From Rhytidiadelphus loreus (lineage: Eukaryota > Streptophyta > Bryopsida > Hypnales > Hylocomiaceae), in contig OX344762.1 of NCBI GenBank assembly GCA_947034895.1, positions 34,204,760 to 34,268,759 of the forward strand: DNA of 64,000 nt. The letters are read 5' to 3'. The notes beneath the pieces are model-generated. The model saw nothing but the letters and a program-made list of their open reading frames with translations, ran no database searches and was not told the origin of the DNA. A program made the translations under genes and the position numbers. Positions within the stretch are counted from its first letter, which is position 1, and each line of letters begins with the position of its first letter. Below, one piece after another: positions 7,691 through 45,708 of this stretch.

Positions 7691-7849
7691 CAGGGTTGTT
7701 CGCTGCGACAGCGCGATAGACAGACGTCGCGCGACATCTAGTAGAGCCCGCGCGACATCACGAAAAGTCAAATTTACCTTTGACTTTACAGGAAATTACC
7801 CCCCTCCAGGTGGATGCCACATGGCATCCACTTGGCAAACTGGAGGGCG

Positions 7850-8175
7850 CGTACGGGTAGGAGAGTGCGGGTAGGGGCGACTGCGGGTGGGCGACTACGG
7901 GTGGACGAGGGCGACTGCGGGTGGACGAGGGCGATAGCGGATGGGCGATTGCGGTTTTCTGAGGGAGACCGCGGGTGGGCGACTGCGGGTTTGGGAGGGA
8001 GACCGCGGGTTCAGGAAGTGGTCTTGCGTGGGCGACTGCGGGTGCGCAAAAGGTACCTAGACCTAGTGGTGGACCTGAAGTCGCCCAATTTGGACCCGCG
8101 GTCGCCCTCTCGAGACCCGCTGTCGCCCACGTTGGACCCGCAGTCGTTGGATACGCAATTACCCTATCCGTACTC
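7850..8175. promoter_or_regulatory. CCCGC(A/G)GTCGCC motif cluster in front of X1 / left hAT end
   Basis: Many copies of GGCGACTGCGGGT and variants run head to tail to about 8050, then reverse-orientation copies such as GACCCGCGGTCGCCC follow to about 8150. The cluster lies within 150 bp of the hAT left end and just before X1, so it may serve as subterminal transposase sites, promoter elements, or both. Confidence 0.7.
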
Positions 8176-8185
8176 GCCCCCCTAG

Positions 8186-10651
8186 ACCACTGTACACACT
8201 CCTGGTGCAATTAGGAAGGCTGCCAAAGACAAGACTAGAAAAAGGAGGGGTAACATTCACAAGAAGCGATGGCATGTGTTGCACAATGATAACCATCTAG
8301 CTTTCAAAGGGTGGAACGAGGAGCCAGAGCCATGGAGTATGCAGGTGTGCGAAGACTACATTGAATGGTGTTACATCGGGAAGTTCTTTCGGGCATGGCG
8401 CCATCATCACAACCGACACAATAACAAGGCAAATTTGAAGTATTGTGAAAATCCAGCTTTCATACGAAGGTGTTTAGAATTGTGGCAGGTCCTCTACAAA
8501 ACCCCTTTTGTAGATAGGAATGAGGCCCCTTTGTTCATTGCTAGAGGTGCCTATGCTGAGGTCGCCTTGAACAAACAAGTTGACTGGACCACGATCAAAG
8601 AAAGTACCTACGTGGAGCGTCCAGAAGTTGGAATAATTCCAAGAGGGGTTCTGAAATTTCCAGAGGGTGGACTTGGGCCTTTTCGAAGTGATCCACAAAA
8701 CAAAGAAACTCAAGAGGTGGACACGGAAGAATCAGAAGACGATAATGATTCAGATGGCACACGGATTCCTAAGCTTGTACGAGTGAAGGAGCAGATTATC
8801 ACCCCCGTTCCAGTTCCAATTCCAGTTCCAGTTCCAGATCCAAATGTTCAAGCCGCTTCATCATCACGGGGAAAGAAGATGAAACATCCTGCCAAGGTGC
8901 GACGGTCCACCACGAAAATCAGATTGGCATCAGCCTCAACCACAATTGCGACTCCAATCTTGCCACCACAAGACGCCAGCAACGTCTTCGACTTTGCTTT
9001 AAGTGACGACTCACCCGTATGTGCCACAAGTCACATTCCCATTCCACAATCTAAATCTGATGTTGTTCACAATGCGATGACATTGGCGAAGGCTCTCGAC
9101 CTCTTGAAGACCAAGGATGCACAAATTGCAACCTTAGAAGGTGATGTGAAGAAATGGCGGTCTACATGTGAACAAAAAAATGCTCTCATTTCTCAACAAT
9201 CGAAAGAATTACAAGGCCTTCAAGAAAAAGAGCGTCAGACTTTCACATTGTCGGACATGGACGACACCTTTGTTGAGCAGAATCCACATCACTTGGACAA
9301 GCTTGTTGGGGACCTCACCAGCGATGTCATTCACCTTTCTCCTCCTGCCAAGCGTACAAAGCGTTCTTCAATTCTTCCAATGGCACCGCTTCCGTTCGTC
9401 TCAAGAGATACTAGTAATCCGCACGTTGATGGTTTGCAAAGGACTCAGGATTCACTTTCGTTTCCTGCCATTCCACATCTACAATCATCAAAGGAACTTG
9501 ATTTGGCTGAGGAAAATAGAATACTTTGAGAGAAGTTGGCAGTGTTGGCAGCGACATACTATCATTGGAAGGTCGTGTGTATTCTCTCCGTGGATCGATC
9601 TCAACAAGTTGCGAAAGAGCTAGACAAAGTTTCGAAGAATTTTGTAGCAAATGCCCCTAAACGAGAGAATGGATTGACATCATGGGCATTGATGGAGGAC
9701 ATGTTTTCGGATAACATGTCCATGCTTGACGTGGCGGAAAAAAATGTCATAGATTGGGCACAAAATGGTTGGGACCATGGAAATCAGATGTCTAGTCACT
9801 TCAACGAAAAAGACCAAAGTCTATTGTGGCCAAAGCCAGCTCATTTCGTCTTGGATCATACCAAATGCCCCATATGTCTAGAACAATTTGGGCCAGAAGG
9901 AGGATGGGCACTTGGATCATGTACACATGTGTACCATCCTCAGTGTCTCATCACCCAATGTCTGATTAGACGACGATGTGTGATTTGTGCAGCACCATTC
10001 CATGATCGCTTGTATACCATGTTCAACTTGATGACTTACATGCCACCTTCTTGGGAACACAATAGAGACACGACGACAGAGACCCAATTTTGGGGACGAG
10101 ACTTGCTTTGGAGTTGGCGAGAAGGCCTACATGATCAAGAAATGGGAGTTGCTGCCTCACAATTGAATTGGGAAACGGACCCGCGTGAAATTCTAAGAGT
10201 GGCATTCAACCTTATGGGAAAAAGAGCTCACAATGCAGGGAAGAGGGCGGGTTTTTTTCAATGCCTTGGTGGATATTTTGATAAGACATCCCAAACCTTC
10301 AAGTGGAGTGCTCATCCGGAAGGACACCGTTGGAATTTTGAAGGTGAACAAGGGGCTAATTGTGATGAAAATGCCACTCTAGAAGACTTGAATAGTATGG
10401 CTTACCTCGACTCAACATACGGGCCTTTTTACCAAAGCCAAGCACTCGATTATCTATTGGAGTTACACTCTCCGCAAACTAAAAGGACACTTGAAGCTCT
10501 CAAGAACTCCAATGTCTTGGAATCTATTTTACAAGCAGATGGACCTGCTTCAAGGACTCGTGCTAAGAAGAAACTCGTTGTTGGAGAGTCCAATGATTAC
10601 GAACAAGGTGCAACGAGTGGTTCTCAGAACAATCCAATGGACTTGAACTAA
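8186..10651 (+). pseudogene. X1: novel N-terminal domain + coiled coil + RING-H2 protein, one in-frame stop
   Basis: The frame is open from 8186 to 10651 except for one TGA at 9527-9529; about 820 residues in all. It starts with a basic tail (KAAKDKTRKRRG). Next is the shared X domain: EPEPW, EWCYIGKFF, RHHHNRHNNKANL, RRCLELWQ and VDWTTIKE, at codons 40-160. A (CCAGTT)-coded Pro-Val repeat, a coiled coil around EGDVKKWRSTCEQK and then the RING follow. The RING is C-x2-C, C-x-H-x2-H-x2-C, C-x2-C at 9866-9988, a classic RING-H2 suggesting an E3 ubiquitin ligase. No in-frame ATG precedes the X domain, so a 5' exon or alternative start is likely. The TGA fits a CGA codon after deamination. Confidence 0.75.
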
Positions 10652-12322: not shown

Positions 12323-13765
12323 CTAAGCACTTTTTTCACTATTCACAAAGTCACTTTCTTTGGGCTCCGGTCTCATTCTTTGAAGTTCCGCACGGGTGGC
12401 ACCTATGGCTTTCACATTCCACTTGCGCCATTCCTTAAAAAAAAGGATGTGGTGCTCCAAGTCCAATATGCCCTCATGCAACAACTCTTGTTTTTTCTCT
12501 AGTAGCTTCACCAAATAAAAAAGCGTTGCTCTTTCTTTTGTATTGCTACCATAATCCGGAGCTAAAGCCAAGATGCCCTTTTTTTTGGCTTCTTGTAAGG
12601 CATCATCATAATATTCCATCTCTAGCTTATGTATTTGAAGATTCAAGCTTCTCCTTTCGCTTTGATGGGACCATTTCTCACGTTGCAAAAGATCAAGTTT
12701 ATTTTGAAGCACCGCTAAATCATCGGAAATGTGTGCTCGCCCCTTTTCGATCTTCTTGAAATAATTTACTCTACTTTTGTTTAACTTAGAGTAAATCTTC
12801 TCATTTTCAGCAATGGCATTTTCAGTCGCCGCGAACTCCTTCTTCAACCCATCCACAACAGTTGGATTCACTGGAAGATGTTGTACCTTCTCTTTCAAAT
12901 TCATAAGATCCACTACTGTTGAAATCAAAGCTGCTCGTGCACTTTCGATCTTAGTGCCCAACATCTCCAAATTGTCTTCCGAACCATTGTCACTGCTTCC
13001 GCTAGACCCAATGTCTGCACCAGAACGGTCCACATTGATCGGTACATGAACAACTAAGCTTTGTTTTTGAATCTTGGACAATGATTGCGGCTCCTCAAGC
13101 TTCCTCTTTCCCTTCTTGTCAACTTGAACGTCCTCGGCCACCTCTTGTTTTTCTTTGCCAATGTCTTCGTCGTCACTCTCAAAAGAATATCCATCGTATT
13201 CGTGAGTGTGCTCATCTAAGCTAGAAGTTGAAGACCATTGAACTTGGTCATCACCAACAGCCAACTTGCTAGGCTTTGCCTCTAAAAGCTTCTGATTTGC
13301 TTGAAGAAGTCCTTCTTCATCCAACACTATCGGTGTGTCCGGGCGGTCACCGATAGGAAGCTCCTTCAAGGTTGTCCAATCTACCTTTTTCTTCAATTGA
13401 ACTTCAACGTACACCATTTGCACAAGATAGAAAGAGAAGTTGTCATTTCGATAAGGCTGGGACTCCAAATAGAATTGCTGCCATACCTCCAAACACCTTC
13501 GCTGGAAGACAACACTCTTGCAGTAAGCCAAATTTGCCTTATTAGACTTCACGTGCAAAGGGTGTCGCCAAAACGGGAACAACTTGTTGATGTGGCACCA
13601 ATCCACATATTTGTTTACAGTTTCATATGTCCAAGGCTCTGGTTCTACTTCCCATCCCAAAAAAGCCTTCATCTTTGGATGCAACAAGATGGGTACACGC
13701 TTCTTGCGAGGTTTGCCGCTCCTTTTATGATCCTTGTCACGAACCGCCTTTTTGGTGAGCCGAAG
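12323..13765 (-). CDS. X2: X-domain coiled-coil protein
   Basis: The frame is open from after a TGA at 13766-13768 to the TGA stop at 12323, about 480 codons. It shows the same order as X1 and X3: basic tail (KAVRDKDHKRSGK), then EPEPWTYETVNKYVDWCHI, KLFPFWRH, NKANLAYC, FQRRCLEVWQQF, MVYVEV and VDWTTLKE. An acidic linker and a long coiled coil (NKLDLLQREKWSHQSERR) follow. There is no RING. No in-frame ATG lies before the domain; an ATG at 13814 opens a 25-codon frame in +1, so a frameshift or a small 5' exon is likely. A motif cluster and the shared module lie upstream (14000-14830). Function unknown; the conserved Trp, Cys and His residues suggest a compact domain, perhaps DNA or protein binding. 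Confidence 0.7.
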   Translation of the reverse strand, partial: LRLTKKAVRDKDHKRSGKPRKKRVPILLHPKMKAFLGWEVEPEPWTYETVNKYVDWCHINKLFPFWRHPLHVKSNKANLAYCKSVVFQRRCLEVWQQFYLESQPYRNDNFSFYLVQMVYVEVQLKKKVDWTTLKELPIGDRPDTPIVLDEEGLLQANQKLLEAKPSKLAVGDDQVQWSSTSSLDEHTHEYDGYSFESDDEDIGKEKQEVAEDVQVDKKGKRKLEEPQSLSKIQKQSLVVHVPINVDRSGADIGSSGSSDNGSEDNLEMLGTKIESARAALISTVVDLMNLKEKVQHLPVNPTVVDGLKKEFAATENAIAENEKIYSKLNKSRVNYFKKIEKGRAHISDDLAVLQNKLDLLQREKWSHQSERRSLNLQIHKLEMEYYDDALQEAKKKGILALAPDYGSNTKERATLFYLVKLLEKKQELLHEGILDLEHHILFFKEWRKWNVKAIGATRAELQRMRPEPKESDFVNSEKSA

Positions 13766-13999
13766 TCAGTATCTTGACATACCGTGTGGCGGTTGAGAGT
13801 CCTCGCCCTCCATAACGATCACTTCGTCTCAAAAATAGCCAACTAAGTACTATGCGGTTTAGGGTTGCAAGCCTAAACTGTAGGTGTAAGAAATGCTAAA
13901 CGTAATCCTATCACATTTAACATTTACAAAAATACAATGTTCTCGTGAAACACCCTATGTCATCCAAGTGTGAATAAAATGAGCCGTGCAAAGGGACAA

Positions 14000-14201
14000 C
14001 CCCCCCCCCCAACTCAAACCCCTAGCTTCTGTGCACGCATTCAGCCACGTCAGCAGGTGAAAGACAGTGCGCAGAATGCCAGGGAAAATGAAATGGCGAT
14101 TGCGGGTGGAGGAGAACGCTGATGTACTCGAGGTCGCCCCTGGGGCGCGTGCGGGTCCTGAAGTGGGGCGAGTGCGGGTCAAAGCAAGTGCTCCAGGGCA
14201 A
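14000..14201. promoter_or_regulatory. X2 upstream module and first part of its motif cluster
   Basis: Reading on the X2 strand, motif copies (GACCCGCACTCGCCCC and similar) come first. They are followed by a block with TTTCACCTGC, GTGGCTGAATGCGTGC and GGGGTTTGAGTT at 14000-14080. Very similar blocks stand upstream of the kinase, X3 and the small Cys/His gene, so this looks like a shared promoter or 5' leader. The cluster resumes at 14660-14830 beyond the MITE. Confidence 0.6.
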
Positions 14202-14276
14202 CAGGGTTGTCACCGTCACGTCCTGTCCGTCCGTCAGGATTCAACCCTGGCGTCCGTCAGGATTAAAAAAAAAAAA

Positions 14277-14312
<36 letters not shown>

Positions 14313-14659
14313 CCCGCTGGACGGTCCGTCCGTCGACCTTGATGGGTGGTCTGTCCACCTTGACGGGTAGTCCGTCCACTGGGACGGTCGGGCCGTCACC
14401 TGGACGGTCAAATTGTCGACCTGAACGGTGGACGGACTAGCCGTCCAAAAAAAAAAAAAAAAAAAAATTTTTTTTTTTTTTTTGACGACCTGGCTGTTCA
14501 CTGGTTTGCTCCAGGGTGCCAAACTGGCTGTCAAAAAAAAAAAAAAAATTTTTTTTTTTTTTTTTTTTTAGGGCTGACGGCAATACCGACTCGTCAGGAC
14601 GGACGCGTCATGACATCCGGACGTGAAAAGCCCACGTCACGTCCGGATAGACAACCCTG
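14202..14659. mobile_element. hAT-type MITE, 458 bp
   Basis: It begins CAGGGTTGTCACC and ends GATAGACAACCCTG, flanked by CAGGGCAA (14194-14201) and CAGGGCGA (14660-14667), an 8-bp duplication with one mismatch. Its first ten bases, CAGGGTTGTC, match the giant hAT's right terminus, so it could be mobilised by a related transposase. Internally it has long A/T homopolymer runs and GGACGGTCCGTCCGTC-type words. It sits inside a motif cluster. No coding capacity. Confidence 0.8.
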
Positions 14660-14830
14660 CAGGGCGACCGCGGGTCCTGAAGTGGAGCGAGTGCGAGTCA
14701 GTGCAAGTGCTCCAGGGCGACCGCGAGTCCTAAAGTGGGGTGACTGCAGGTCTGGACAGGTGCTCCAACGCGACCGCGGGTCTAAGGAGCCCAGACGAGT
14801 GGGTGACCGCGGGTCCTGGGCGACAGCGGG
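14660..14830. promoter_or_regulatory. Remaining part of the X2 motif cluster
   Basis: About eight copies of GCGACCGCGGGTCC and variants alternate with GTGCTCCAGGGCGACC words. Before the MITE inserted this was continuous with 14100-14201. Confidence 0.6.
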
Positions 14831-15683
14831 TCCATCTGTTAATGCATGGACTTTTCTTTTCTTTCTTAGTACATGTTTATAGATTGTGATATTTTTTTTC
14901 CATTTTTCCTTGCATTGGGAAAGTGGCGATACTAAATGTTACGGAGGGGCTCCAAGCTTCAACATTCATCCACGTACTGGATAGAAAATGTGATACTAAG
15001 TATCTAAAATTCTATTTTCATTTACATTGTGGCGATTTCATCAAAGACTTTTCTAGAAGTTGAAGTTTTTCTAGCAATTTCATCCAAAATTTTCCTAAAA
15101 AATTCCTATAGCTTATAGCTAGCGTAAATTTTTTGTTGCTTTTGAGCACCAAATCGCAAGGGAAAAAAAAAGGATTGTGAGCTCAATCCCATTTGTGTTG
15201 CAAAATTTATGGAATACTAGTTTATACTTTATACTATATTTGGGGAGCCATTAGGGTTGAGGTGGGTTGTGGTACAAATGGATTCCTTATTGATTATCTG
15301 AACAGAAGTTAAATCTTTGCAATTGTTTTAGAAGTTGTTGTTAACCAATTTTTTTGTTATTAATTAATTTCATTGTTAATTCTTAATTTTATTGTAAATG
15401 ACTAATTTCATTGTTAATGACTAATTTTATTGTTAATAACTAATTCAATTGTTAATAACCAATGTTATGATTATTAACCATTGCAATTGTAACAATAATG
15501 TCTTTGTAATTGTTTTGACATGAGATGTTCATTATGTATTTTTGAATGTAGACTCAAATTACATACTATGTTACACACACTAATTTTGATAAATTACATG
15601 CCTAATAACCAAATTTCTTGTATGGACACAAATCTATAAATGAAAGTCATTGTTGAACTTATATCATACTCCAATGAACCATC
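14831..15683. other. AT-rich hAT interior without a gene
   Basis: No coding frame supported. There is a loose tandem of TTGTTAATNACTAAT-like words at 15350-15490. The stretch ends at the target site of MULE-1. Confidence 0.5.
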
Positions 15684-15693: not shown

Positions 15694-16135
15694 CAGGGTT
15701 GCTATTGTGCGAGCCTAGGAGCGGGAGCTTGTGAGCCTGTGAGCCTGTGAGCCCGTGAGCAGGAAATTTTTGTGATGGAAAATTTTGTGTCGGAATTTGT
15801 ATTTGATCAAAAAATTTGTGACGAACCCATGACCGTGGACTTTGGGACAACTGAAGTTCTATGACCATGGATTTAGAAAACATTTGAGGTCCACCAAATT
15901 AAGGATCATTTGTGCACATTTAGAGGCACTTCCATTTTTGTTTGAGAACATGTCTAATATAAACTGGCTTTTAGTGTGTTCAGGGATTTAGCTAGGGTTG
16001 TAGGAATAGGAAGGTAAAGAAATGACCCCAAGATGTATGCACTCCTTTCCGTACTACTATTGATAATTTATCATTAGGGTTCTTTTTTAATTCTTTTATA
16101 TTTTTATTTTTATCGTTCCACTACTTAGTACTTTG

Positions 16136-16345
16136 CAAAACCATGAAAACAGCTGGGAAATAACTATGACAATTAATTGTGACAATTAGTTCCTAGCTGC
16201 ACCTTCACAGTGCTTGATGAAGCACATGATGAAAGTTATATGAGAGCTCATGCTTTCACACCCAATCCTTATGGGATATTTGAACAACCATCTTCAATTC
16301 CTACACCCATTCTATGCATTGTATATTGCATTGATTGTACCTCGT
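16136..16345 (+). repeat. Dispersed repeat, copy A
   Basis: A segment of about 210 bp starting CAAAACCATGAAAACAGCTG, with an AATTAATT-centred imperfect palindrome near its start. Other copies are at 37657-37870 (same strand) and 58728-58940 (opposite strand). The first and last are at equivalent positions in MULE-1 and MULE-2; the middle one is independent, in the hAT. Confidence 0.7.
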
Positions 16346-16609
16346 TTTCTCCAATTTTTTTCCAATACTAAATACTTATCCTTATCCTTATACCCTTAAG
16401 GTTTAGGGTGTAAGGGTTCATTCTCCACATTTGTTCACTAATTAGTCTGTTTCTTTGGAGATATTTTTTCATTACATTTTTTTTATGTAAGAGAAATATC
16501 AAACATCAAACACATTGCACCGAACTTGTAGCCATAAAACACACCAATCAAATCAACATAAAAATGAATACACATAGTTCAACTCATAAGATGTGTCAAT
16601 CTTATGAGT

Positions 16610-19600
16610 CTACGTCGCTGTGGACTCTATCATAGAAACCTCACCCGAAGATGACTGTGGAGTCTCTTCTCCCTCAGAAGCTGAAACATCTAAAAAATGA
16701 ACCACATTTGCAGCATATTTGGGTAAGCAAGGTTTTGGTTCTCTACAACCATTTCGTTCATACTATGATGCCATCTTCTCGGCATACATTGGAAGATCGT
16801 AAGACTTTTCCGGACTCAAAATGAGTCTTCGTATCTTCTTCATACGATGTCCGTTTGTCACTCGTTCGTTCCTTCAAATACAAAGATCTCAATGTTAAAT
16901 CCTTGGAATTCATGAAATGCAAGACATATTGAATACAAAAACACACAAGTCAGTATTGAATACAAAACTTACTTACTAGGTCTAATGTTGCTGGTAAACA
17001 CCATTGGCTCCACGTGCACAGAATCTAAATCAAGAGCGGCAAAAACTTCTTCTGGAGCTTGTGTCACCCCTTCCATTTGAGTGGCTTTCTTCATCGGCAG
17101 GAGAATCCCATTGAAGATATTCTCGTCCTTCTCCAAAGCCACGATATGCCGCCCTATGCCACGACATGTAGTAATCGATGCTCCTGCAAGAGAAGCATGT
17201 GACGATTATAACTTCAATATGTGAAGGCAGTATGCGAGGTACATGGTAAGGTTGTTCACGAATAAACATTTCACATCAAAACTATCATTTGAAAGCATTA
17301 GCTAACTTGTAGCTGTGGTGCAGTCGAGAACCACATCTTCTTCGTCGGTGCACCCTTCAATGAAGAATTGTAGAAATCTTGCATCTTTCTCTCGCGGTCC
17401 GCGCCAAGGCATTTTGGATTCCTTCTCGACCAACATTGTCTCCTCCGTGATATAATTGATGACCATGTCTTTCTTCTGCATATTCCACTTGGCTTTCGTC
17501 ATGGCCCTCGTCTGCCTAAACTTGAAATCTGTTGGCCCTTTCTCACCTATGTCCTTCACGAGAAGGGTAACTCCGAACTTCATAGTCTGCCAAAATGAAA
17601 ACAAAATGTTAAGTACAAAAATGAATGTTTCTAAAATAATTGACATTCACATTGCAAATTTTCACAAACTTACCGTTTGTCTAGGGTTAATACCCGATGC
17701 TAGGTCCAACTGGTTGAATTCCAACCACTCCTTCTTCATCACCAATTTCTTGAAAACATTCCGTAATCCTGCAAACATACGGCGCGACTGAAGGCTGTAC
17801 GAGTGAAATACAAGAATACAGCCATTGTCTTGTAAGTTTTCCTCGGCAAAGTGAAATGCATTTTGCATTCCCGCACAGGTTGGGTCCGAGTTCCATGGCG
17901 GAACGCGCTTTTCAGAGATGAGTGGCACAGGGAGGTTCTCCTGGCAGTCAAAAATAATGAGATCCACCAAAGGCTCCCGGTTGACCCTACCGTCAAACGA
18001 GCGAGCTTTTCTTGCATTCATCTACAATCAAGTGATTGTTCATGTTACTAGAGAACTCAAATTGTAACAACTTGCTTCCAAATAAGAATTGAAATTATAA
18101 ATTGAACTTGAAGATTAGGCATACCTTTTGAATGAAGTCCATGACTTCAGTATAGCAATTCGGTGCTGAACTCCCCAAATTGTCCATGATGTCAACAATA
18201 GACACGTTCAAAATCAATTCCTTGGATTTCACATCATCATCGTCTAGTACAACAACCTGCGTACCTTGCGTTACCATTTCCTCCGTCCACTCTGCAAGAA
18301 CGGCCTTCCTCTTCATCCCGCTCTGAGTTCCCTCAACCAACTGCGAGCTCTGATCCACCGCTGATGATGTTGGAATGCCGGTATCACCATCTTCGTTTTT
18401 TTTCCCCTTTGCCTTTGCTTTCTCCTCCTTCTCCAGTTGCTTCTCCTTCTCCTTCTCCTCCAGCTTTGCGAGACGCTCTGTCTCCTTCTTCTGCTTGTTG
18501 TCCAAAGCCATTTGGAGACGGGCCGCTTTCTTTTTGTCAGCTTGGTCCCTTTTGGCAATTGCCTTCTTCCTTTGCTCATCGGTGAGGCCTGCAAACTCGT
18601 CCACAGCTAGATCAACCGCTCCAATGCCCTCCAAGGAATTTCGGAGTTCTACCTCCAACGGATGCGTGTACGAAATGGGGCAGTCAATGTACCATCCACC
18701 GCCATTGAGATGAGCGGTTGTAAACGTTCGAAGTTGATTCGGTGTGTACATGCAACTAGCAGAAGTGCGATCTAGAAAGACCGAAAGGAATGGAGGAAGG
18801 TCTACCCTCTGGATTGCTCTTTTTCCTTCAAGTTCAAACTTGAAATATCTACAGCATGAATTACCAATAACATTAAGGAAGAACTGAAAAAATCAAGTAA
18901 AACAAAAGAAAATTTGAAGCCCATGTTCTCCAAATTACAAATTAACGATTCAAACGTATCGAAAAAAATTGAGGTCAAAGATTTTTATTCTACATCTTTG
19001 AGGGGGCAAAATGGGGGTCCCTGTTCAACTCTTACAATATGCTTCGGATACGAGGCATGTTCTAGACGTTGTACAGGGACCCCTTACAGTGGTTTAGTCC
19101 AGAATTTTGTAAAGGATTTTTTCTTCAAGATTATGATTCTTAGCCCCTCAAAAATGACATATTACATTCATATTCTCACATTCACACATGTAATGTAATA
19201 GTTGATGAACTTTGGAATACTGCCATATAGAAGTACGTGATAAAGAAGAGGGCGTTGAAATGTTCAAAGTATGATGAATAGCTTAGGGTTTTAGGGTCAT
19301 ACCGGAAAAGCACCCTCTTCACGGCTTGTTGGGATCCCTCATACGCGTTGAAGTTGTCGCTTTTCTTGAAGTAATTAGCTCCTCTCAAATGCGCCAAAAA
19401 ACCTTGATCCCATATTTTTCTCCTCCAGTCTTCCAAGTATTCTGTTAATGTCTCTGGATGCAGTGGAACGTTCATGTCGATGATGATGTTGTCCTGTTTG
19501 ACAACTTCCTCAAAGTATTGCACAACTCCATCTTCGATCTGTGAAAAGGAAATACATATTAGAAATCCTTGATTACATATTGAAATGCAAGAATTTGAAA

Positions 19601-21270: not shown

Positions 21271-21484
21271 CTGCAAGTTTAGATTATAAAATTAATCAAT
21301 ATAGAGGGACATGCATCCGCAAATGCCCACTAACATATAAATAATAACATAACGGTAAACCATATATAAATGAACAAAAGAAGAATGAAGCACTCGAAGG
21401 CAAAGAACTTGGTTCAAAATGTATGTCGGCCATACACTATGCTCTCAAGCAATATATCCTCAAAACAAATCCAGTACAATGGAA

Positions 21485-33544: not shown

Positions 33545-34025
33545 TGAAAGGGCAAAAATTCCCCCTCCAATTGAAACCCCAGCCCACGGGCTCGCATCTA
33601 GCTACCTGAAGGTAGGTGAAAGACAGTGCGCAAGGCTAAAGTAAGGTGAGAATCGGAAGTGGGGCTAACGCTTAAGTACCCGAAGTCACCTCAGGGCGCG
33701 TGCGTTTGGGTGACTGCGGGTCAGAAGAGGGGCGACTATGCATTTTTGGAGCTCGGAAATGGGCGACTGCGGATCGTGGGCGACCGCGGGTACCAACTAA
33801 ACCATCCCGAAACTTGCACACGCGGTCGCCTACAAAGATGTCTCCTTGACCCGCAGTCGCCCCCTACACGCAGTCGCCCTACTAGAGATTGAGTTTGCAT
33901 TTTCCAAAAAATTAGTCTTCCTCCTTGACCCGCAGTCGCCCCCTACGCGCAGTCGCCCTGATTCAAATGTGTTTCTCTCTGTGTCGATGACCCGCGGTCG
34001 CCCCTGACCCGAGGTCGCCCTAAAC
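33545..34025. promoter_or_regulatory. Kinase upstream module and motif cluster
   Basis: On the gene strand, many GACCCGC(A/G)GTCGCCC motifs lie at 33690-34020, followed by TGCGCACTGTCTTTCACCTA and a GGGGTTTCAATTGG block nearest the gene. The order matches that upstream of X2 and X3. Confidence 0.65.
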
Positions 34026-34324
34026 CAACAACCATTTTGACCCAACACTAATTAGCATCTGCAGCATATTCTAATTGATTTTTCCTTATCTCACATACTA
34101 AATTGGTAATAAATGTTAGGCTTCAGTTCATATCAAAGACATGGCAAGGCAATGGAAGAATTATTCTCACAATGTGAAGGGGTTCCCAAACCCTAAACCC
34201 TAGACCCTAGACCTTGGAAAACAATAATAAAACTTTTATCTAGAATCAAATCCTTAAACCTACATAAAATACTTACACATCCTACACGAGATGTAGTATT
34301 TTAGACCTAAAACAGAATCATGTC

Positions 34325-34870
34325 TTTTTTGTCTTGTTGAAATTGTATAGAAAAAGGAGAAAGCAACATATGATCAAAGGGAATTAGAAACAATAAAGGA
34401 GGGGTCCCCAAAAAAACACCATCTTGTGAAACATGCCCAAATAAATCTAATTACACCTCCCCACTATTAGAATGTACATAAAACTTTCATTTGGAACTTC
34501 TTGCCAAAAGAGTGTTGGAGAGCTAATGCAAAACCTAGGATTTGTTTGTCTTGTTGAATTTGTAAAGAAAATGGAGGAAGCAACATATGATTAAAGGGAA
34601 TTAGAAACAATAAGGGAGAGGTCCCCAAAAAAACACCATCTCATGAAACATGCCCAAATAAATCTAATTACACCTCCCCACTATTAGAATGTACATAAAA
34701 CTTTCATTTGGAACTTCTTGCCAAAAGAGTGTTGGAGAGCTAATGCAAAACCTAGGATTTGTTTGTCTTGTTGAATTTGTAAAGAAAATGGAGGAAGTAA
34801 CATATGATTAAAGGGAATTAGAAACAATAAGGGAGAGGGGTCCTAAAAAAAAAAACATCTCGTGAAACAT
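34325..34870. repeat. 217-bp tandem repeat, about 2.4 copies
   Basis: GTCTTGTTGAA recurs at 34331, 34548 and 34765 within otherwise near-identical units that include CACCTCCCCACTATTAGAATG. Non-coding. A short CCCTAAACCCTAGACCCTAG stretch lies just before it (34190-34210). Confidence 0.85.
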
Positions 34871-34879
34871 GCCCATACC

Positions 34880-35590
34880 CGCACTCGCCCCAAGCGTGGT
34901 CACCCTAGAACCCCAGGTCTGATTTTGGAAGTGATCTGGGGACTCGCGGTCGCCCCCTATGTGCAGTCGCCCTGATGGAAGGGAGGAGATTGCATTTTCA
35001 AAAAGTTTGGTCTCCCACCTTGACCCGCACTCGCCCCCTACGCGCAGTCGCCCTAATGGAAGGGGGGAGATTGCATTTTCAAATAGTTAGGCGTCTCCCA
35101 CCTTGACCCGCAGTCGCCCCCTACGCGCAGTCACCCTGATGGAAGGGGGGAGATTGCATTTTCAAATAGTTAAGCGTCTCCCACCTTGACCCGCAGTCGC
35201 CCCCTACGCGCAGTCGCCCTGATGGAAGGGGGGAGATTGCATTTTCAAAAAGTTTGGTGTCTCCCACCTTGACCCGCAGTCGCCCCCTACGCGCAGTCGC
35301 CCTGATTGAGGGCGGAAAATTATTTGGTGTCTCCCTCCCCCTCCATATGGGCGACTGCGTGTAGGGGGCGACTGCGGGTCAAGGAGTTTGTATTTTCTCC
35401 TTGACCCGCAGTCGCCCCCATGCGTAGTCGCCCTGATGGAGGGGGGATTTTGAAATGTGTTTCCCCCTCGAGGACCCGAGGTCGCCCTTGAAAGACGCGA
35501 GGGATCCTTGGACCGGACCCGCGGTCGCCCCACGCGCAGTCGCCCTAGTATCCTTGTTAGGGTTAACGCATGCGCCCCTGGCGACCGCGG
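34880..35590. promoter_or_regulatory. Largest motif cluster, with tandem units of about 80 bp
   Basis: Five tandem units of about 80 bp repeat GACCCGCAGTCGCCCCCTAC, then GCGCAGTCGCCCTGATGG and GGGGGGAGATTGCATTTTC, up to 35310. Both motif orientations follow to 35590. Next comes TTCACCTGCCTTGTAGTGGC, then TGAATG (35645-35680), the shared module seen before other cargo genes. The small spliced gene at 36090-37108 lies downstream. Confidence 0.7.
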
Positions 35591-36089
35591 GTATTTCATG
35601 GGTTGTTCCAGCCTGTGGTCCATAATTTTCATAACTGCGCCTTGTAGTTCACCTGCCTTGTAGTGGCTGAATGTGGGCCCAATGTTGTGGAGGTCTCGTG
35701 GTTTTTTTGGTTTCCAACAAACAACCAATAATACAGCAGACACTTCTTGTATACTTCAATGAACCCAAAATCTTTTCCATTAGTTTAGGATAGTGAGAAT
35801 ATCAAAGCCATTTGATGTAGAGGGCCTTGAAACAACAATTGCATTCATTGTGGCAAAGTTGTTGAATAATAAGGATGCACATACAAATGGGTGTGAAGTC
35901 ACCGAAAAAGGGTACACTGAATTTACATTTAAAACAATTAGCAGTTCAAATGAAAATGATTCATTTGATTCTTCATTGATTCTCTTTCATTTTTGGGTGC
36001 TATAGTAACGTAGGGGGGCTTCAATTGTTATGTAGTCTATTCAAATTTTGCATTGCTAATGATTAGTTATTTGGCTCCTTACAGGCTTA

Positions 36090-37108: not shown

Positions 37109-38360
37109 CTAGAGACATTGTTGTGGTGCATCAAATGGCAGCCTTGTACCATGGCATAAGACCCTATTTTGATTTTTGAAGTGGGATCATAGAAAGAAAT
37201 AAGTTATTTATGAAGATAATAGTACTAAAGTCATGCTAGACATGTGAAATAGCAATGTGCTTGACAAAGAACTTCATTTTACATTTCTATACTATGATTT
37301 TGCTAAACAATGCATGGATTGTTTATCTCAGATGGATGGTCATATTTTGCTAAACAGTCCATGGTATATGAATGTTTAATTGGTTAGTGCCCAATACTTT
37401 AATGGTTTACATATGTGACCCCCCCCAAAAAATATATACCCATAAATGTGACCCCCCCAATAAAATATATACCCATAAATGTTGTGCCCCGTTATTCTTG
37501 GTTCACAAGTTTGAAATCCCCAAATATTGAAAATGTACAAATGTATGCCCTTGATTTAATCCCTTTGTTTGTAAATATGATGGCTACACTTTTAATTAAT
37601 ATGAAACAAGTTTTATTGTTTGGATACCTATGAATGTACACATAAATAAAATTTGAACAAAACCATGAAATCAGCTGGAAAATAGCTATGACAATTAATT
37701 GTGACAATTAGTTCCCAGCTACACCTTCACGGTGCTTGATGAAGCACATGATGAAAGTTATATGGGAGCTCATGCTGTCACACCCAATCCTTATGGGATA
37801 TTTGAACAACCATCTTACTACACCTATCCTATGCATTGTATAATTGATTATATTGAGTTTTGTTCTCTCACGCAATTTATAATGTGTCAATCACACCTCA
37901 CCATAAATGAATAACAGGTATTTATCCCTCAATTCCCAAACCCCTTCTTTTGGAGCTCTCCGAAAGTGGTCTACATTGATCAAGAATCCCACATTCTTCA
38001 TAGTTGGATCTTGTTTTACAATGGATTCACCATACAAATTCAAACTAAACATAATAGAGATTGCATTGGAAAATAAAATGCAACCATGTGAATCATGGAT
38101 GGTAAATTTCTTATGTTTGATTATTTTCTTATTGAAATTGCAGAAGTGATGTTAGGGTGGGAATCCTCTTTTTGCATGTCAAATCTAATAAGTTGCAACA
38201 ATAATTAATAAAATGGCTAAAGATGCATAACCCAAATTTTTAAATAAAAGATGAAAAGGTGCAATACATTTTTATGAAGTGCATTGGTAACTCAAATTTA
38301 TGTCCACAATTTTGTGTAAGAGAACTTCAAAGTGAAAGTCTTAGAGGTTCAGAAATTCAA
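37109..38360. other. Gene-free stretch with dispersed repeat copy B
   Basis: AT-rich. A short direct repeat (GTGACCCCCCC...AATATATACCCATAAATG) occurs twice at 37414-37481. Dispersed repeat copy B is at 37657-37870. No coding sequence supported. Confidence 0.5.
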
Positions 38361-38364: not shown

Positions 38365-38790
38365 CTGCCCTGTACCCGCAGTCGCCCACCCGCGGTCGCC
38401 CCACTGTCAGGGTCCAGAAATTACTCTGTGGTACCCCACACGCGGTCGCCCATCCCCACTAGCCCCAGACCCGCAGTCGCCCTACCCACAGTCGCCTTCG
38501 ACCCCAGTACTTCTATAGCCTTAGACCCGCGGTCGCCCATCCCCACTAGCCCCAGACCCGCAGTCGCCCTACCCGCAGTTGCCTTTGCAGTCGGCCCCTT
38601 AGACCCGCAGTCGTCCTACCCGCGGTCGCTCTCAGACCTGCACGCGCCCCTTCCCGAACTCGCCCTAGGGCGATTGCGAGTTAATTAGTTGTCTTCCCAC
38701 CCGACTTCGCCACTTTCCTTTCTTGCTGCGTATTGCCTTTCACCTACTTTACAGTGGCTGATTGCGTGCCCGGGAGCTTGGGTTTTGAGT
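38365..38790. promoter_or_regulatory. X3 motif cluster and shared upstream module
   Basis: CCCGCAGTCGCCC-type motifs run at 38370-38680, including an imperfect tandem unit with CCATCCCCACTAGCCCCAGA. They are followed by TTGCCTTTCACCTACTTTAC, GTGGCTGATTGCGTGCCC and GGGTTTTGAGTTTCAC (38730-38795). This is the clearest example of the module. Confidence 0.7.
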
Positions 38791-38909
38791 TTCACTTACA
38801 TGTGGCTCATGTTCTTGATTTTACTCCATCACTCACTAATCGCTAGATAATACTTTGCGGTTTAGGGTTAAGTTTAGATTCCTTGCCCCAAATCTCGAGA
38901 GCATCTCCA

Positions 38910-40517
38910 ATGGCGGACCACAAGAAGAAGACCAAAGCAAAAGCAGCCATGCACCCTAGGCAACGACGCATCCTTTTGGACCCAGCGTGTGTGGCCTACC
39001 GAGGTTGGGATCGCATTACGGGCCACTGGACCGCCAAGACTTGTAAGTCCTTCGTGGGGTGGTGCCACATCGACAAGTTATTCCCCTATCATCGGCACTA
39101 CACGAATCGGCGCAACAATACGGCCAATTTGCATCCATGTCGTAATGATGCGTTTGTGCAACGATGTATCGAAATTTATTGATACTTGTATGGCACATAT
39201 TTAGTGCCCAGGAGCGAAGTCCCGTATTTCATATGTGCAATGGTGTATGCGGAACTCATTTTGTTTCGAAGAGTGGATTGGAGATCAATCAAGGGAGTGA
39301 AGCATGCTCGCCTTCTACCCACAGAAGACATTCCAAGGGCGGCTCTATCTGCCAATCCACGTGAAGGGCTAGGCCAGAAGAAAAACTTGAAGGAGGGAGT
39401 GCCTGATGAGCAGTTTCAGTGGACATCATCTGATTCATCTTCCGGAGAGGAAGACAACCTTGGTGAAGACCCTCCAATGGAGCCTAAAAACATGGCGAGG
39501 GCGGCTTCTACTTCACAAAATGTACGTCCCCCGAGAGTGGAAGAAGAGGGTGAACCAGCTAGGCAACCACAAAATCTTGATGTTTTGCCTCTTGCTTTGG
39601 TGAATCCAATTACAGTCCCTTGCACTGAAGAAGACGAAGTTTTGCAGTATGTGCTTGCATGCGTACAAGAAGCAAAAGATGATGTTTTTTATACAGAGAT
39701 GGAAATGGAAGAAGATGTTAAGCCTTCTTTGTTCCAATTGGATTGTGTTGATGACATGTACCGAAGTGAGGAATTCGTTGAAGATGGAACTGTCCCTGAC
39801 ACAGTAATGTTAGACACCAAAGTTGTTTACAGAGCTCAACTCAAGAAGCTTCTAAATGAGTTGGATGAAAAGCATCTAGAATGTGAGAAGCTTCGCAATC
39901 AAGAAACGCAAACTTTGAGTGGAGATATTGTAAATAGCTTACGCGCTGAACTTGAAAGTCGGCAAGTTCTTTTGTCAACGCAAATAACAAAGATTTTAGA
40001 CTTGGAAGCATTTTACCTTAGATTCTCTTCTCGGCATGCTGGAGGATCTAGTTCTTCTAGCAATGAGTTTGCGAAAGAACGGCTTGCCAAAATTATGGAA
40101 GCATGCAAGTTGGAGGAAGATCAGATAGACTTGGAGAAGCGAGGGTTGGAAGAAGCACGATCAAGATTAAATTTCTTGAAAGCATTAAAGGACAAAGCCC
40201 CCCTTGACCGTGTTGCAGAAATGTGTGGTTGGAAAGACGTGGCTACTAAACAAACATTGTCTCTTACGGAAGTAGTTGACTTGAAAAAGAAGCTTGGGGT
40301 TTCTTTGTCATTGGATCCAAAATTGGAAGAACATCGGGATGCACTGAAGGTGCTTTTGAAGTTCCAAAAATCATACAAGCAATATTGGTTAGCACAGAAG
40401 TTGGGGAAGGATGACCGATACCTTAGGATTTTGCTATTGGAAGGTAGGAAAGTCTTGTATGAGATGGAACGTGAGGCTCATGACCGCAAAGAAAAGGGCA
40501 AAATGGATGTTGAATGA
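38910..40517 (+). pseudogene. X3: X-domain coiled-coil protein with one in-frame stop
   Basis: ATG 38910 follows the shared module closely, so it is the best-supported start in the family (MADHKKKTKAKAAM). The X domain follows: SFVGWCHIDKLFPYHRHYT, NTANLHPC, FVQRCIEIY, MVYAELILF and VDWRSIK. A TGA at 39180-39182 interrupts it in a place where X1 and X2 read on; the frame then stays open to 40517. Total length about 535 residues. The second half has acidic and long coiled-coil segments (LKKLLNELDEKHLECEKL) like X2; no RING. Function unknown. Confidence 0.7.
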
Positions 40518-41090
40518 TTTTCATTTTTAGCACATTTTTGAGGAGTATGTATATTCCATATTATGTATATATAAAAGGATATTATCCATTTTGAACATTC
40601 CAATGCAAGCACATTGAATTCTATGTAGTTCCTTGACAAGAGTACATAAATATAGATATGAATTTTTGGTTATTTATGTTTGCAATGTTGTGAATACTAG
40701 AATATTCTAGGAATTTTGGCAGAAAAATGACCTTGGGAGTTCGGACTTTAGGAATTAAAAGAGAATTAAAAAAAAAGGAAAATTAAAAACTTGCCTGATT
40801 GGAAAAGAACTTGTTATTGAAGTTCAGAGCAATTGTCACGGCTAGGGTGAATTGACCTACTCATTGCCACTCCAGGGCAAACACTAGAATTTTTTATTTT
40901 CAAGGCTTAATTTTTTTTTGGAAACTCTAAATTCATAGTTTCGATTATAGGCCCCAAATTACCTCAGGGGGATGCAAGAATTATAAAAAAAAATGGCACA
41001 ACATGGGGGCTTTTATATCAAACCTAAGCTGACTGGGGCAATAAGGGGGTTAATTCTCCACCGCAGGCAAGGCCAATCTGTCGCCTCACA
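40518..41090. other. Gene-free spacer downstream of X3
   Basis: AT-rich, no coding frame or repeat recognised beyond short homopolymers. Confidence 0.45.
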
Positions 41091-41210
41091 GAGGACCCGC
41101 GGTCACCCTTGTACCCGCAGTCGCCTGTTCCTGGACCCGCAGTCGCCCATCACCTGACTTATTTCAGGTTTTTGGACCCGCATTCTCTCATGGGGCGACC
41201 GCGGGTCCAA
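41090..41210. promoter_or_regulatory. Small motif cluster upstream of the hAT transposase
   Basis: Four or five motif copies (GGACCCGCGGTCACCC, GTACCCGCAGTCGCC, GGACCCGCAGTCGCCC, GGGGCGACCGCGGGTCC) end about 130 bp before the transposase frame. The transposase thus shares the motif with the cargo genes. Confidence 0.6.
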
Positions 41211-41340
41211 GGAGTTTTGTTGTATAAAGTTCTAGAGATACCCCTTGTTTTATCACCTTGGCTCCGTTGATAAAACTCTTGTCTTGGACCTTCGAAAGAG
41301 GCTTCATGCGGACGTTTAACTTCTTCGGAGGGCAACAACC

Positions 41341-44300
41341 GTGTTTAGAAGGGTTTACAAGACCACTTTAAACGGGTTGCTTTGTCATTACATCTTCCAT
41401 AGTATTAGTGTGATTATTGTAGTCATTTTCTTTGAAGACCCAGTGTTGATCTACTACATGGCTGGACAAGGTGTTGGGAGGGGGGGGACCATGAATGATA
41501 CGCGGAGGTCCACAAAGGATTGGGACCCTTGGCTAGTACCGTGCACCCCAATTGATAATTCCCCCCATGCTCGAAAATGCGTGTTTTGTGGGTGGAGCAA
41601 AGCATTTGTACGAAAGAGAGCATTGATTCACTTTGGCTATGGCGGCTCGACTACATCGGAGCGTTGTAAGGAGATCCCTAGAATTGTACGAGAAAAGTTT
41701 CGGACTGGCGAGGGGCAAGTTCCAAGGTCCATGAGTTACGAAGAGATGTATGATGCACCGACTAGACATGATGCACCAGTTAATGTTGCAGAGTCTATTG
41801 TCGCACCTGCGTTGGATGTCGAAGAAGAAGGGTCTCTCAATCCCTTTGAATCAAATGCAAGACCAAATCCTATGCCTGATTCAGTAGATTCTACTGGAAC
41901 AACGCTTGAGAGAAGGAGGAACATGCCATCTATTTCTCAGCAAAGAAGCATGGATGAATCATTACAGACGGGCCACAGACAAGAGTTGGATAGGTTGTGG
42001 GCTTCTTTCTTTTACGAGGCGAACATTTCATTTAATGTTGTGCGCCACCCGGCCTTTGTGAATGCTGTTAAATAAATTGCAGCAGCTGGATTCGTGTACC
42101 AACCGCCACCGTATAATGCGATTTGCACGAAAATGATAGATGTTAAGAAGGCATCGGTTGAAGCCATGGTCTCGGAGCGGACGAGGGTTTCAATAAGTCA
42201 GTATGGAGCGACAATTTGTTCAGATGGTTGGTCCGATACTAATTCGCGGCTGTTACTGAATATGATGTTGGTGTGTCCCGCCAGGGATGTCTTTTTGGGA
42301 TCAGTGGATAGTATTGGGAAGAAGAAGGATATATCTTACACAACTAAGACAATGGCACGATACATTGAGGAAGTTGGGCCTACCAACGTTGTGCAATTGT
42401 GTACGGACAATGCTGCAGTCATGACGGGGGCGATGGTAAGGTTGGAAGAAAGGTACCCTCACATTTATAGGCAGGGTTGTGCGGCACACATTTTGGACTT
42501 ACTCTTAGAAGACTGGGGAAAGGATCAGAGAGTAAAGGAGTTGGTAAAAAAGGCTTCATCAATTGTGAAGTTCATCAAGAAATACCAACATACTTTGGCG
42601 TTGTTTCGGAGATTTTCACCAAACAAAGTGTTGAGACTTGAGACTTCTAAGCAAAACACGTTTTGCCACAAATTTCTTGATGATTGATCGTTTGGTAGAC
42701 TGCAAGCAAGTAGTGCACAACGTAACACTGGATGAGACATACATGACCTTCGAGTTGAGTTTGCAAAACCGCAGAAATGGACATTTCATTATGGGCAAGG
42801 CCAAACTTGCAAGGCAAGATATCCGTTCAGAAGAGTTCTAAGTTCAGTGCGACAATTTCCTCCATATGGTAGAGCCCGTGCTACTTTGTCTTCGTCATTT
42901 TGATGGAAAAGTCCCGGCAATGCCGAAAGCTTTAGTAATGATGACAGCCTTGAAGGAGCACGTTTATTCTCTCAAGAATGCTCCATTTTTCCTTGATCCA
43001 GTGGTGGCAACACGATACGAGAAACAATTTGATGCTCGTTGGAAGTTGATGATTACTGACCTACACTATGCGGGGGCACTACTAAATCCATACTTGAGTG
43101 ACGTAGAGGCTATTCATAACAATGGCTACACGAAGGGAGCTTTGAATCGAGTCATACGAAAACTGAGCGTACCATTGAACGTGTCAGTGGTGGAAGCAAT
43201 GCAGGAGCTAACTCAATTTGAAGAGAAGACAGGTGCATTCAATCCTTTACATGAGGCTCCCGATAGCATTGAATGTCAATTATTGCCTCATCAATGGTGG
43301 AATCGTGTGGGGGGCAATGCTCTTCCAAAAATTGCAAAGCGAATTCTCGGTTTGACGTGCTCTGCATCTTCGTGTGAAAGGAATTGGAGCATGTATTCCT
43401 TTGTGCACAATAAAGTGCGAAACCGCTTGGCCACGACAAAGGCGGAGACATTGGTGTATATCTACGCAAACAGCAAACTTGAACGTCAAAAACGTGGACA
43501 CAACCCAGCCATTTTTTACGACCAGATGCTTGCAGATGGAGATGATGAGGACGAGCGTGATGGGCCTTTGTCTTCAGGGGAAGAAGACGACGTTGTTCCA
43601 AATTTTATGAGAGAATGCGAGAACCGCAGGGATGAAGAGGATCGGTTGCGCTACAATCCTTGGAATGCAATGGTTAGACCGCCACATAGTCCTCCACGAC
43701 CAATATACGGGAATACATTTGACTTTAGTGACGATGGGTATGTTTCTCCTGGAAATTCACCTGTACGCAGTCCACCGTAGAACATCGTGCACACTATGGA
43801 TGCAATTTTGCCGGCACATGCATCACAGAGGAGGGAAAGCACCCCCGACAACAACGACGAAGGCGTACCTATTCCCATGGCACCCGTAGAGGAAGAAGCT
43901 AGATCTCCAATATCAACTAGTTCGCCTCCGAATATGGCCTGCAATTTAAGAAGCAATGCACAAGTTCCAATGAGAAGCGAACATGAAGAAGAGGCCATCG
44001 AAGTCAATGAAGTTGTACACGAGGGAATACCAAATCCCGTTGTATTGAACGCATCTACCCTCAGAACAACTGTTACTACAGATGATGATGATGATGTGCC
44101 ATTGGCATATGTTATGAATCGAAGTCGGAATGTGCCGTTGAATCCAGAGACGACTACAATTGTGGCAACAGTGAGGAGGTCTATCCCAACCCTTCCAACA
44201 AGGCCACCGGTGCGTGAAGGTGCTCTACGGACGATTGATGAAGAGGCTCACGGCTCAGCTCCACAACCCACTCAACCTTCATCCGTGTCTGGCCCTAGCG

Positions 44301-44740
44301 AATCATCATTAGGAATCCAGGGGCGCAACAGTAGAGGCCAAAAATGGCGTATTAGGAGGGTTGACGAGAGGGGACCTCGAAACCCTAAACGACCCACTCA
44401 AATTGTCCAACGGTGTACCATTGGAGCGGGATGTTCCATCCAGAATGTTGGACAATCAAGTAGAGGAGGGCGACACCTTGCATCCAACATGGATGGAACT
44501 ATGGATGCATTGAGGCTCACGAAACGACTTGTGCAAACTGAAGGGTTAAGTGGTGTAGATACAGAAGTTCAAAATCTGAACTCAGAGGTAGAGTGTGAGG
44601 TACAAATCGAAGTAGTAACAAGGGAAGATGATGAAATCGAAAGCTCAGGCGACAACAAGAGCAACGAAGAGTCTTACAAAGATACAAACCCTAATGCTGA
44701 TGAGGTGCCGAGCAATTCCACATTCATGCCTGGTGACTAG
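41341..44740 (+). pseudogene. hAT transposase (BED, DUF659, hATC), disrupted
   Basis: A BED-type finger (KCVFCGWSKAFVRKRALIHF) lies at about codons 79-98. The DUF659 catalytic region has ICSDGWSD, VQLCTDNAAVM and QGCAAHILDLLLEDW. Downstream are the HQWWNRVGGNALPKIAKRIL segment and the hATC dimerisation motif SCERNWSMYSFVHNKVRNRL. An acidic, Pro-rich tail follows, and the same frame continues 317 codons to 44740 after a TAG. Lesions: TAA 42073-42075, a frameshift near 42640-42660, TAA 42839-42841, TAG 43778-43780. The intact protein would cut and join the CAGGGTTGT ends with 8-bp target duplications. The last TAG could instead be the genuine stop, but the open frame after it argues otherwise. 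Confidence 0.85.
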
Positions 44741-45250
44741 AATACTAGAGAAGTAGACAATAATTATAATTATAGTTATAGTTATAGTTATAAGGTTTAG
44801 CTTATATGTTAGGTAGCAAATCTTTGTAGTTCAAGCTTTGAGCCTTCATCCTGATGTGTATGGATTTTGTAATGCTTCATCAAGCATATGAGCATATTAG
44901 AGTGAGGGACAGATTACCGGTTTTAAAATATATGTTGAGTTCTAATTGGTAGGCAGTTAGGTGATGACTGCAACGAGGTTATAAAAGTGCAATGCAAGTA
45001 TGACTACATTTGAAGTCCGCCTCAAAGCAATATCGATGACTTATTAATATAATTGTTGTTGACATTATTATTGTGGCCTTATATTGGGTGAATTTTTGGA
45101 ATTAGAGAAGTTGTCCAATTTACATTTCATGGGCTCTATTATTTGCACTTGTAAATTGTAAACCCCAATATAACGTAGCACCTAATTCTGCGCTTATAAA
45201 ACACCTATGTGACGTGTTACTTCAAAGACTGAATATGCCAAACTGAAATC
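44741..45250. other. Gene-free stretch after the hAT transposase
   Basis: Contains a short (TATAGT) microsatellite near 44765-44792. No gene seen. Confidence 0.5.
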
Positions 45251-45254
45251 CTAA

Positions 45255-45708
45255 ACTGAACCTGCGTTCGCCTTGAAATACGCGGTCGCTGTCTGCTGCT
45301 CCGACCCGCAGTCGCCCCTACCTGTCGGACCCGCGGTCGCCCTCAGTACCCGAAGCCGCGGTCGCCCCTTAACCCGAAGTTGCCCTAAAGCCCCTGATCC
45401 GCAGTCACCCACTCACCCGTAGTCGCCTTCCACCCTAAACCTGCAGTCGCCTCAATTTTTCCACCCGAGGTCGCCCAAGGCAGACCTGCATGCGCCCACA
45501 CCCGCAATCGCCCACACTAGCTGTCCACGTCAGTTCTGAAGCCCTGCCACGTAGGCAAAATCTATTTACCATGGGGTAAAATTTTTTACCCCTCCGCGAC
45601 GCGATGTCAAGTAAACTCGACACTTGGTGACACACGACACGCGACGTCAGACGTCAGACGTCATACACGACGCTTAAACCCAAAAATATGTCAGACAAGA
45701 CAACCCTG
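45255..45708. repeat. Right end of the giant hAT: motif cluster and terminal inverted repeat
   Basis: Motif copies GACCCGCAGTCGCCCC and GACCCGCGGTCGCCC run at 45255-45510, all in one orientation. A GACGTCAGACGTCAGACGTC stretch at 45644-45663 is followed by the terminus ACAACCCTG. The left end mirrors this with CAGACGTCGCGCGAC. No coding sequence. Confidence 0.75.

Follow-up and report, generated by a model that had tools for sequence, protein, structure and literature searches.

We found that a single giant transposon of the hAT superfamily lies in a stretch of 64,000 nt of Rhytidiadelphus loreus DNA (contig OX344762.1, 34,204,760-34,268,759 of the forward strand, assembly GCA_947034895.1), which was analysed as a whole and is called the window below. 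The insertion spans 7691-45708 (38,018 bp) and is a hAT by its duplication length, its termini, and its transposase. It belongs to a giant hAT family with a fixed accessory gene set, autonomous in kind (the window copy itself is not), and we propose, with a probability of roughly 0.5, that this set forms part of a motif-addressed control system. hAT elements are usually regarded as small and transposase-only; what is novel here is the size, the recurrent accessory set, and the motif layout of a hAT.

The outer 9 bp are identical between the two ends, 24 of the 60 outer positions agree, and the flanking duplication is perfect (8/8). The boundaries, and two insertions that lie between them, are as follows:

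7683-7690: left copy of the 8-bp target-site duplication CTCACCGC
7691-7699, plus strand: left hAT terminus CAGGGTTGT, read in the window
14202-14659: 458-bp hAT-like insert with CAGGGTTGT ends, flanked by CAGGGCAA/CAGGGCGA
15694-30990: MULE-1, nested in the hAT and foreign to it, with the 10-bp duplication TATGAAAGAA
45700-45708, minus strand: right hAT terminus ACAACCCTG (CAGGGTTGT on the minus strand), read in the window
45709-45716: right copy of the 8-bp target-site duplication CTCACCGC

All window pairs of end-like 9-mers (up to one mismatch) were screened for flanking 8-mers with up to two mismatches, and two end pairs passed: 7691/45708 without mismatches and the 458-bp pair 14202-14659 with one. 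The hAT target is a tandem array of ~320-bp repeats. The 8-mer CTCACCGC is found again at 7364 and 46030, the segments 7364-7690 and 45709-46037 share 93% identity, and periods of 319 and 321 bp are restored when the element and one duplication are removed. The array supplies an internal empty site, and both hAT ends therefore come from one insertion. The end-pair screen and this empty site bear out the 38-kb unit, bounded by hAT ends and a perfect 8-bp duplication, that a first-pass annotation of this DNA had described, and the restored periods exclude one of the two findings that it had named as speaking against it, namely ends from different insertions.

Six genes of the window copy were read between these ends:

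8207-10651, plus strand: X1, with an X domain, a coiled coil, and a RING; in-frame TGA at 9527-9529, start region missing
12323-13813, minus strand: X2, with an X domain and a coiled coil; in-frame TGA at 13766-13768 near the N-terminus
31906-33498, minus strand: protein kinase, open frame of 530 aa
36090-37108, plus strand: Cys/His gene, five exons with GT-AG borders assigned by eye, all matched in 6/6 other copies
38910-40517, plus strand: X3, a diverged X-family protein; in-frame TGA at 39180-39182
41458-44740, plus strand: hAT transposase (DUF659 and hAT dimerisation domain), broken

The transposase matches the Pfam families DUF659 (8.1e-35) and, above the cut-off, the hAT dimerisation domain PF05699 (1.3e-5); its N-terminal frame (244 aa), where a BED-type zinc finger would be expected of a hAT, gives a weak Zn ribbon (0.19) as the best Pfam match and nothing else at E up to 1. 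The kinase passes the Pfam cut-off (1.2e-12) and is remote from solved kinases in sequence (best phmmer E 1.4e-4). The RING, which forms the C-terminal half of X1, scores slightly under the cut-off (8.3e-6), and seven residues of X1 (C554, C557, C572, H577, C580, C591, and C594), which we take to be the RING ligands, are invariant across 20 aligned sequences. No Pfam family matches X2 or X3 above a cut-off; X1, X2, and X3 are paralogues with a common N-terminal domain, X1 being 26% and X3 19% identical to X2. The protein collection holds 34 relatives of X1 (E up to 0.001; the best with 66% identity over 99%), 9 of X2, and 51 of the kinase (E up to 1e-5).

The source genome consists of 407,041,205 bases in 489 contigs, and the five large contigs seen measure 94.4, 89.9, 84.8, 75.1, and 50.7 Mb. 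TTTAGGG-type repeats, which are of the plant type, stand at two of the six contig ends read, and N at the other four. Using a 610-bp left-end query, we scored 40 left ends among 951 candidates and fetched six copies, c1-c6, which are ranks 2 to 7 by left-end score and a non-random sample. X1, X2, the kinase, and the Cys/His gene are present in all six, in the order and orientation of the window as far as readable, and X3 and the transposase in five, the right part of c1 being interrupted by another element. The Cys/His exons are 90-100% identical to their matches in all six copies, and the kinase of c6 is matched over 431 of 530 residues. The right-end duplications are perfect in c2 (ATCTGTCC), c3 (GATGCAGC), and c4 (GTCAAGAT) and agree at 7/8 positions in c5 and c6; c1 has no right end within the fetched stretch, and the left flanks differ among all fetched copies. 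Without MULE-1 (15,297 bp) and its duplication, the window hAT comprises 38,018 - 15,297 - 10 = 22,711 bp, and c2-c5, which contain no large inserts, measure 22,402, 22,549, 22,793, and 22,912 bp; c6, with its Cys/His gene interrupted, measures 25,634 bp.

The family extends well beyond these copies. At least 81 full-length kinase copies, the window's included, were found at 96-100% identity (81 scored of 1360 candidates), and 61 of the 81 best-scoring copies are without an in-frame stop. From the better-scoring kinase loci we sampled 20 that have no stops and are absent from the left-end list, and read 1.1 kb at the expected left-end position of each. A hAT left end stands at the expected distance in 16 of them (13 with CAGGGTTGT, three with one change), preceded by 16 different 8-mers, and at the other four no hAT left end was seen in the 1.1 kb fetched. 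Many similar copies with differing duplications, as far as sequences can tell, show past mobility only.

Several expectations of the first-pass annotation can be judged on these data. Its gene set of transposase, X1-RING, X2, X3, kinase, and spliced Cys/His gene is confirmed, with X1-X3 proving paralogous, and its estimate of ~22.7 kb after subtraction of MULE-1 matches the four copies without large inserts. Further copies with the same ends, 8-bp duplications, and the same genes, which it had proposed to look for, exist among c1-c6. The opposite outcome that it had considered, cargo genes occurring apart from hAT ends, was not observed: 16 of the 20 sampled kinase loci have a left end. With none in the 1.1 kb read at the other four, its exclusion is partial.

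We scanned both strands for the 15-bp family-1 motif GACCCGCAGTCGCCC with up to three mismatches and found 75 matches in the 22.7 kb of hAT DNA, none in MULE-1 (15.3 kb), and none in the flanks (26.0 kb). Their clusters occupy the two ends and the upstream regions of X1, X2, the kinase, the Cys/His gene, X3, and the transposase, in the following arrays:

7875-8149: left subterminal array, also upstream of X1
14094-14832: array upstream of X2, interrupted by the 458-bp insert (14202-14659)
33708-35593 (33708-34020 and 34876-35593): arrays between the divergent kinase and Cys/His gene
38373-38682: array upstream of X3
41094-41207: array upstream of the transposase
45303-45513: right subterminal array, inverted relative to the outermost left array

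The seven cluster places are repeated in c2-c6, and the first four of them in c1. In addition, a module of ~70 bp is located between array and gene, in gene orientation, at X2, the kinase, the Cys/His gene, and X3:

14008-14076, minus strand: shared promoter module upstream of X2, leave-one-out E 1.5e-11
33564-33634, minus strand: shared promoter module upstream of the kinase, leave-one-out E 6e-10
35633-35702, plus strand: shared promoter module upstream of the Cys/His gene, leave-one-out E 2.7e-7
38725-38794, plus strand: shared promoter module upstream of X3, leave-one-out E 4.9e-11

For each value, a profile from three module sequences was used to find the fourth in the 64-kb window, and the profiles gave no further match below E 1 there. 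The module is found at 4/4 places in c2-c6 and at 3/4 in c1. The kinase and the Cys/His gene resemble neither one another nor the X genes, so unrelated genes of the element have a promoter in common.

A second family adopts the same arrangement. Its reference element, nested in c1, is 14,794 bp long with ends CAGGGTTGACGA/CTGTCAACCCTG and a perfect duplication TTCCCAAC, and encodes a transposase in three frames (PF05699 3.3e-10, DUF659 8.6e-28), an X-RING protein (open frame of 1120 codons), a kinase (492 codons, 26.6% identical to the family-1 kinase), and an X protein (377 codons). The family-2 motif GCGGACGGC (up to one mismatch) occurs 61 times in these 14.8 kb and once in 14.5 kb of adjacent family-1 DNA; one occurrence is isolated and 60 are clustered, at the left end, upstream of the transposase, X-RING, and kinase genes, and in the interval from the X gene to the right end. 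The family-1 motif does not occur in the 14,794-bp element. The motif has apparently changed between the families while the layout stayed.

Family-2 kinases number at least 87 at full length (87 scored of 1141 candidates), with 95-100% identity. Two of three full family-2 stretches show the four genes complete and in unchanged order, and the third is without the transposase; both ends were found at four of ten sampled family-2 loci, with perfect duplications in two of those four. Two of the kinases (G000:C5:48077319 and G000:C5:48093461) are 100% identical and lie 16 kb from each other in opposite orientation, which may reflect a local duplication of recent date. Parts of a third family lie beside c4, where an X-RING gene (identity to X1 of 34% and 54% in two stretches) and a kinase gene (33%) are arranged head to head around a third motif; element ends and a transposase were not found for this family beside c4. 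In a comparison of seven kinases, from families 1-3 and four of the collection, K251, E268, H363-N364-D365, N370, D389, and G391 are invariant in 7/7 sequences, down to 26% identity; K251 is presumably the catalytic lysine, E268 the helix-C glutamate, and H363-N364-D365 the HND loop of the kinase.

The window copy is, judging by its reading frames, a dead or dying member of its family. Its transposase has stops at 42073, 42839, and 43778 (TAA, TAA, and TAG) and a frameshift near 42660-42690, X1, X2, and X3 have one in-frame stop each, and ~218 bp at the X1 start that are present in other copies are missing; the kinase frame is open. Two of these six sites are stops in a single further copy each, the X2 site in c6 and transposase 42839 in c3, and at the remaining four no other copy compared has a stop. 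Each X gene contains exactly one TGA, and a reassignment of this codon was considered and rejected because the sites are non-stop in most copies (6/6 for X1, 5/5 for X3, 5/6 for X2) and the transposase stops are of the other two kinds. Among the aligned codons of the analyses of nonsynonymous to synonymous substitution rates (dN/dS), with the window's own stop codons excluded, the other copies contain 20 further stops, each private to one copy; the kinases of c1, c3, and c4 account for eight. Averaged over pairs of the 6-7 copies, dN/dS values are 0.41 and 0.56 for the X1 halves, 0.59 for X2, 0.47 for the kinase, 0.53 for X3, 0.62, 0.96, and 0.41 for the transposase pieces, and 1.15 for the transposase tail; on these figures, the accessory genes look no less constrained than the transposase.

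The set occurs in every fetched copy and its core again in the diverged family 2, which makes "accessory genes" a better term than "cargo". Of the giant cargo-carrying hAT first described here, the single giant hAT with a multi-gene set thus stands, and cargo in the sense of passengers gives way to a conserved accessory set; its suggestion that such proteins manipulate the host or the element's own activity stays a hypothesis. Each of the two complete families possesses its own short CpG-containing motif, in arrays at the termini and upstream of genes, which in the reading that we favour serves them as one shared address. An element-encoded DNA-binding protein, either an X-domain protein, the transposase, or both, would bind the family motif, and this binding may keep the element promoters active against host silencing and couple expression to transposition. 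The RING protein and the kinase would be the effectors, acting at the bound sites on chromatin or repair proteins, which they would remove or modify. We infer the identity of the motif binder, the regulation by the arrays, and the targets of the RING protein and the kinase from gene content and motif layout. A more specific form of this reading, tentative and in our view rather doubtful, is that the families represent an unrecognised giant-hAT clade in which X proteins are DNA-binding proteins that co-evolve with a private CpG motif, and in which a RING ligase and a kinase disarm silencing at bound sites, an independent hAT counterpart of the VANDAL/VANC system with enzymatic effectors.

Several observations weigh against such a control system, and some of them lead directly to its simplest rival, in which the transposase is the sole binder of the arrays. 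Binding of short subterminal repeats is a property of hAT transposases themselves (described in part of PMC3143072), so the arrays need not involve X proteins; a search gave no structural relative of the X domain, and a DNA-binding role for it therefore lacks independent support. Neither X1 nor the transposase yielded the module, and in three family-2 stretches it gave one chance-level match only (E 0.93). The family-2 kinase scores under the Pfam cut-off and has no APE motif, and D365 is absent in 2 of 22 aligned kinases (P0019 and P0038). The comparison of shared with private variants shows no significant difference (p 0.28 for accessory genes, 0.58 for the transposase), and the dN/dS values are moderate and come from 6-7 copies only. 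The arrays could thus be transposase-binding subterminal repeats spread to internal promoters by recombination, with the transposase regulating itself and X, RING, and kinase acting elsewhere, e.g., in the cell cycle or DNA repair, in favour of transposition. We regard this as quite possible: the outermost arrays are mutually inverted, as expected of transposition ends, and both the motif and the transposase differ between families. However, arrays stand upstream of genes as well as at the ends in both families, and the X proteins vary between families in the same manner as the motif, so that the sequence data fit either binder.

Genes kept for a benefit to the host, as in the fungal Starships, would be another explanation of the set. 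Kinase and RING proteins are plausible effectors, and giant elements with accessory genes are known (partial texts of PMC12506042 and PMC10175614), but the presence of the set in every fetched copy and of its core in family 2, the element's own motif and module at the promoters, and at least 81 kinase copies, against ~5 at most reported for Starships in the part of PMC10175614 that treats copy number, make such an origin improbable. The dense nesting of the window (MULE-1, MULE-2, MULE-3, and the 458-bp hAT-like insert) could also suggest that several transposons or captured host genes came by chance to lie between two hAT ends. We consider this barely credible, as ends, genes, order, and spacing are repeated in copies with other duplications, including the four of 22.4-22.9 kb; for the whole gene set, the six fetched copies rule it out.

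An addressed accessory set can be compared with several known systems. With hAT elements of the Ac, Tol2, and Herves type, the families share 8-bp duplications, short inverted termini, the dimerisation domain, and subterminal repeats (PMC3143072, in part), but they measure 15-23 kb, compared with 4.4 kb for Tol1 and 4.7 kb for Tol2 (figures in an excerpt of PMC10175614), carry five (family 1) or three (family 2) accessory genes, and have arrays also upstream of internal genes. In the case of Arabidopsis VANDAL, an excerpt of PMC5735166 describes VANC proteins that bind a short motif in non-coding tandem repeats and remove silencing, the motifs differing between families. Family-specific short motifs in non-coding arrays and an accessory gene beside the transposase are common to both systems (portions of PMC5735166 and PMC10398659). 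However, VANDAL is a MULE with a Mutator-type transposase, and the present elements have DUF659/hAT domains and include RING and kinase genes in the set.

Starships are also giant elements with recurrent accessory gene families (PMC12506042, in part), but they have a tyrosine recombinase captain at the 5' edge and few copies, in contrast to the hAT transposase and many copies here. The first gene from the left end is X1 and the first from the right end is the hAT transposase, and a DUF3435 tyrosine recombinase captain had no Pfam match in the nine frames scanned. ToxhAT, now ToxTA, was named as a cargo-carrying hAT, but it was classed by its authors with Tc1/mariner because it has a TA duplication of 2 bp and termini of 74 bp (both points from an excerpt of PMC12506042). 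Plant Pack-TYPE elements are likewise class II elements with extra genes; unlike the present families, in which whole genes recur across copies and families, they are hybrids with captured chromosomal sequence (both as stated in a section of PMC13317346), and they are non-autonomous, whereas the element here has its own transposase gene; no search for a donor of its genes in the host was made.

One genome holds at least two high-copy hAT families, of ~15 and ~23 kb, with a common core of transposase, X-RING, kinase, and X genes and with kinases that are 27% identical. If the motif addresses an element-encoded regulator, sequence-specific transposon control would become testable beyond VANDAL/VANC, and natural pairs of motif and binding protein would be available. 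Long-term association of a transposon with a kinase and a RING protein would also raise the question of what a cut-and-paste element must phosphorylate or ubiquitylate.

The ~320-bp target array of the hAT appears to belong to an outer MULE-family copy, MULE-2, which extends beyond the left window edge and has its right end at 59378. MULE-1 is a second, inverted copy of the same family (92.6% identity, 15694-21909 vs 53195-59378). This family is giant too, MULE-1 having several frames besides a SWIM-like transposase region seen by eye, for which no Pfam match above the cut-off was obtained, and it has its own tandem arrays of ~320-350 bp (7204-7690 and 22253-22775). A further MULE-like element, MULE-3, lies within MULE-2 at 46411-53194, with ends CAGGGTTGC / GACGTTG and an apparent 10-bp duplication TGGAGGTATC at 46401-46410 and 53195-53204. 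Termini starting with CAGGGTTGC were also considered as hAT ends and rejected, since the duplications are of 10 bp where both ends are readable, and were assigned to MULE-1 and MULE-3.

An open frame of 889 aa at 59403-62072 resembles a transposase by eye and matches no Pfam family at E up to 1. The 458-bp insert contains poly-A/poly-T blocks and another repeated motif of the GTCCGTC type, and is perhaps derived from yet another family. Finally, a piece of ~200 bp in the hAT (37658-37855) is 90-94% identical to parts of MULE-1 (16136-16339) and MULE-2 (58740-58936), and is possibly a short element inserted in both.

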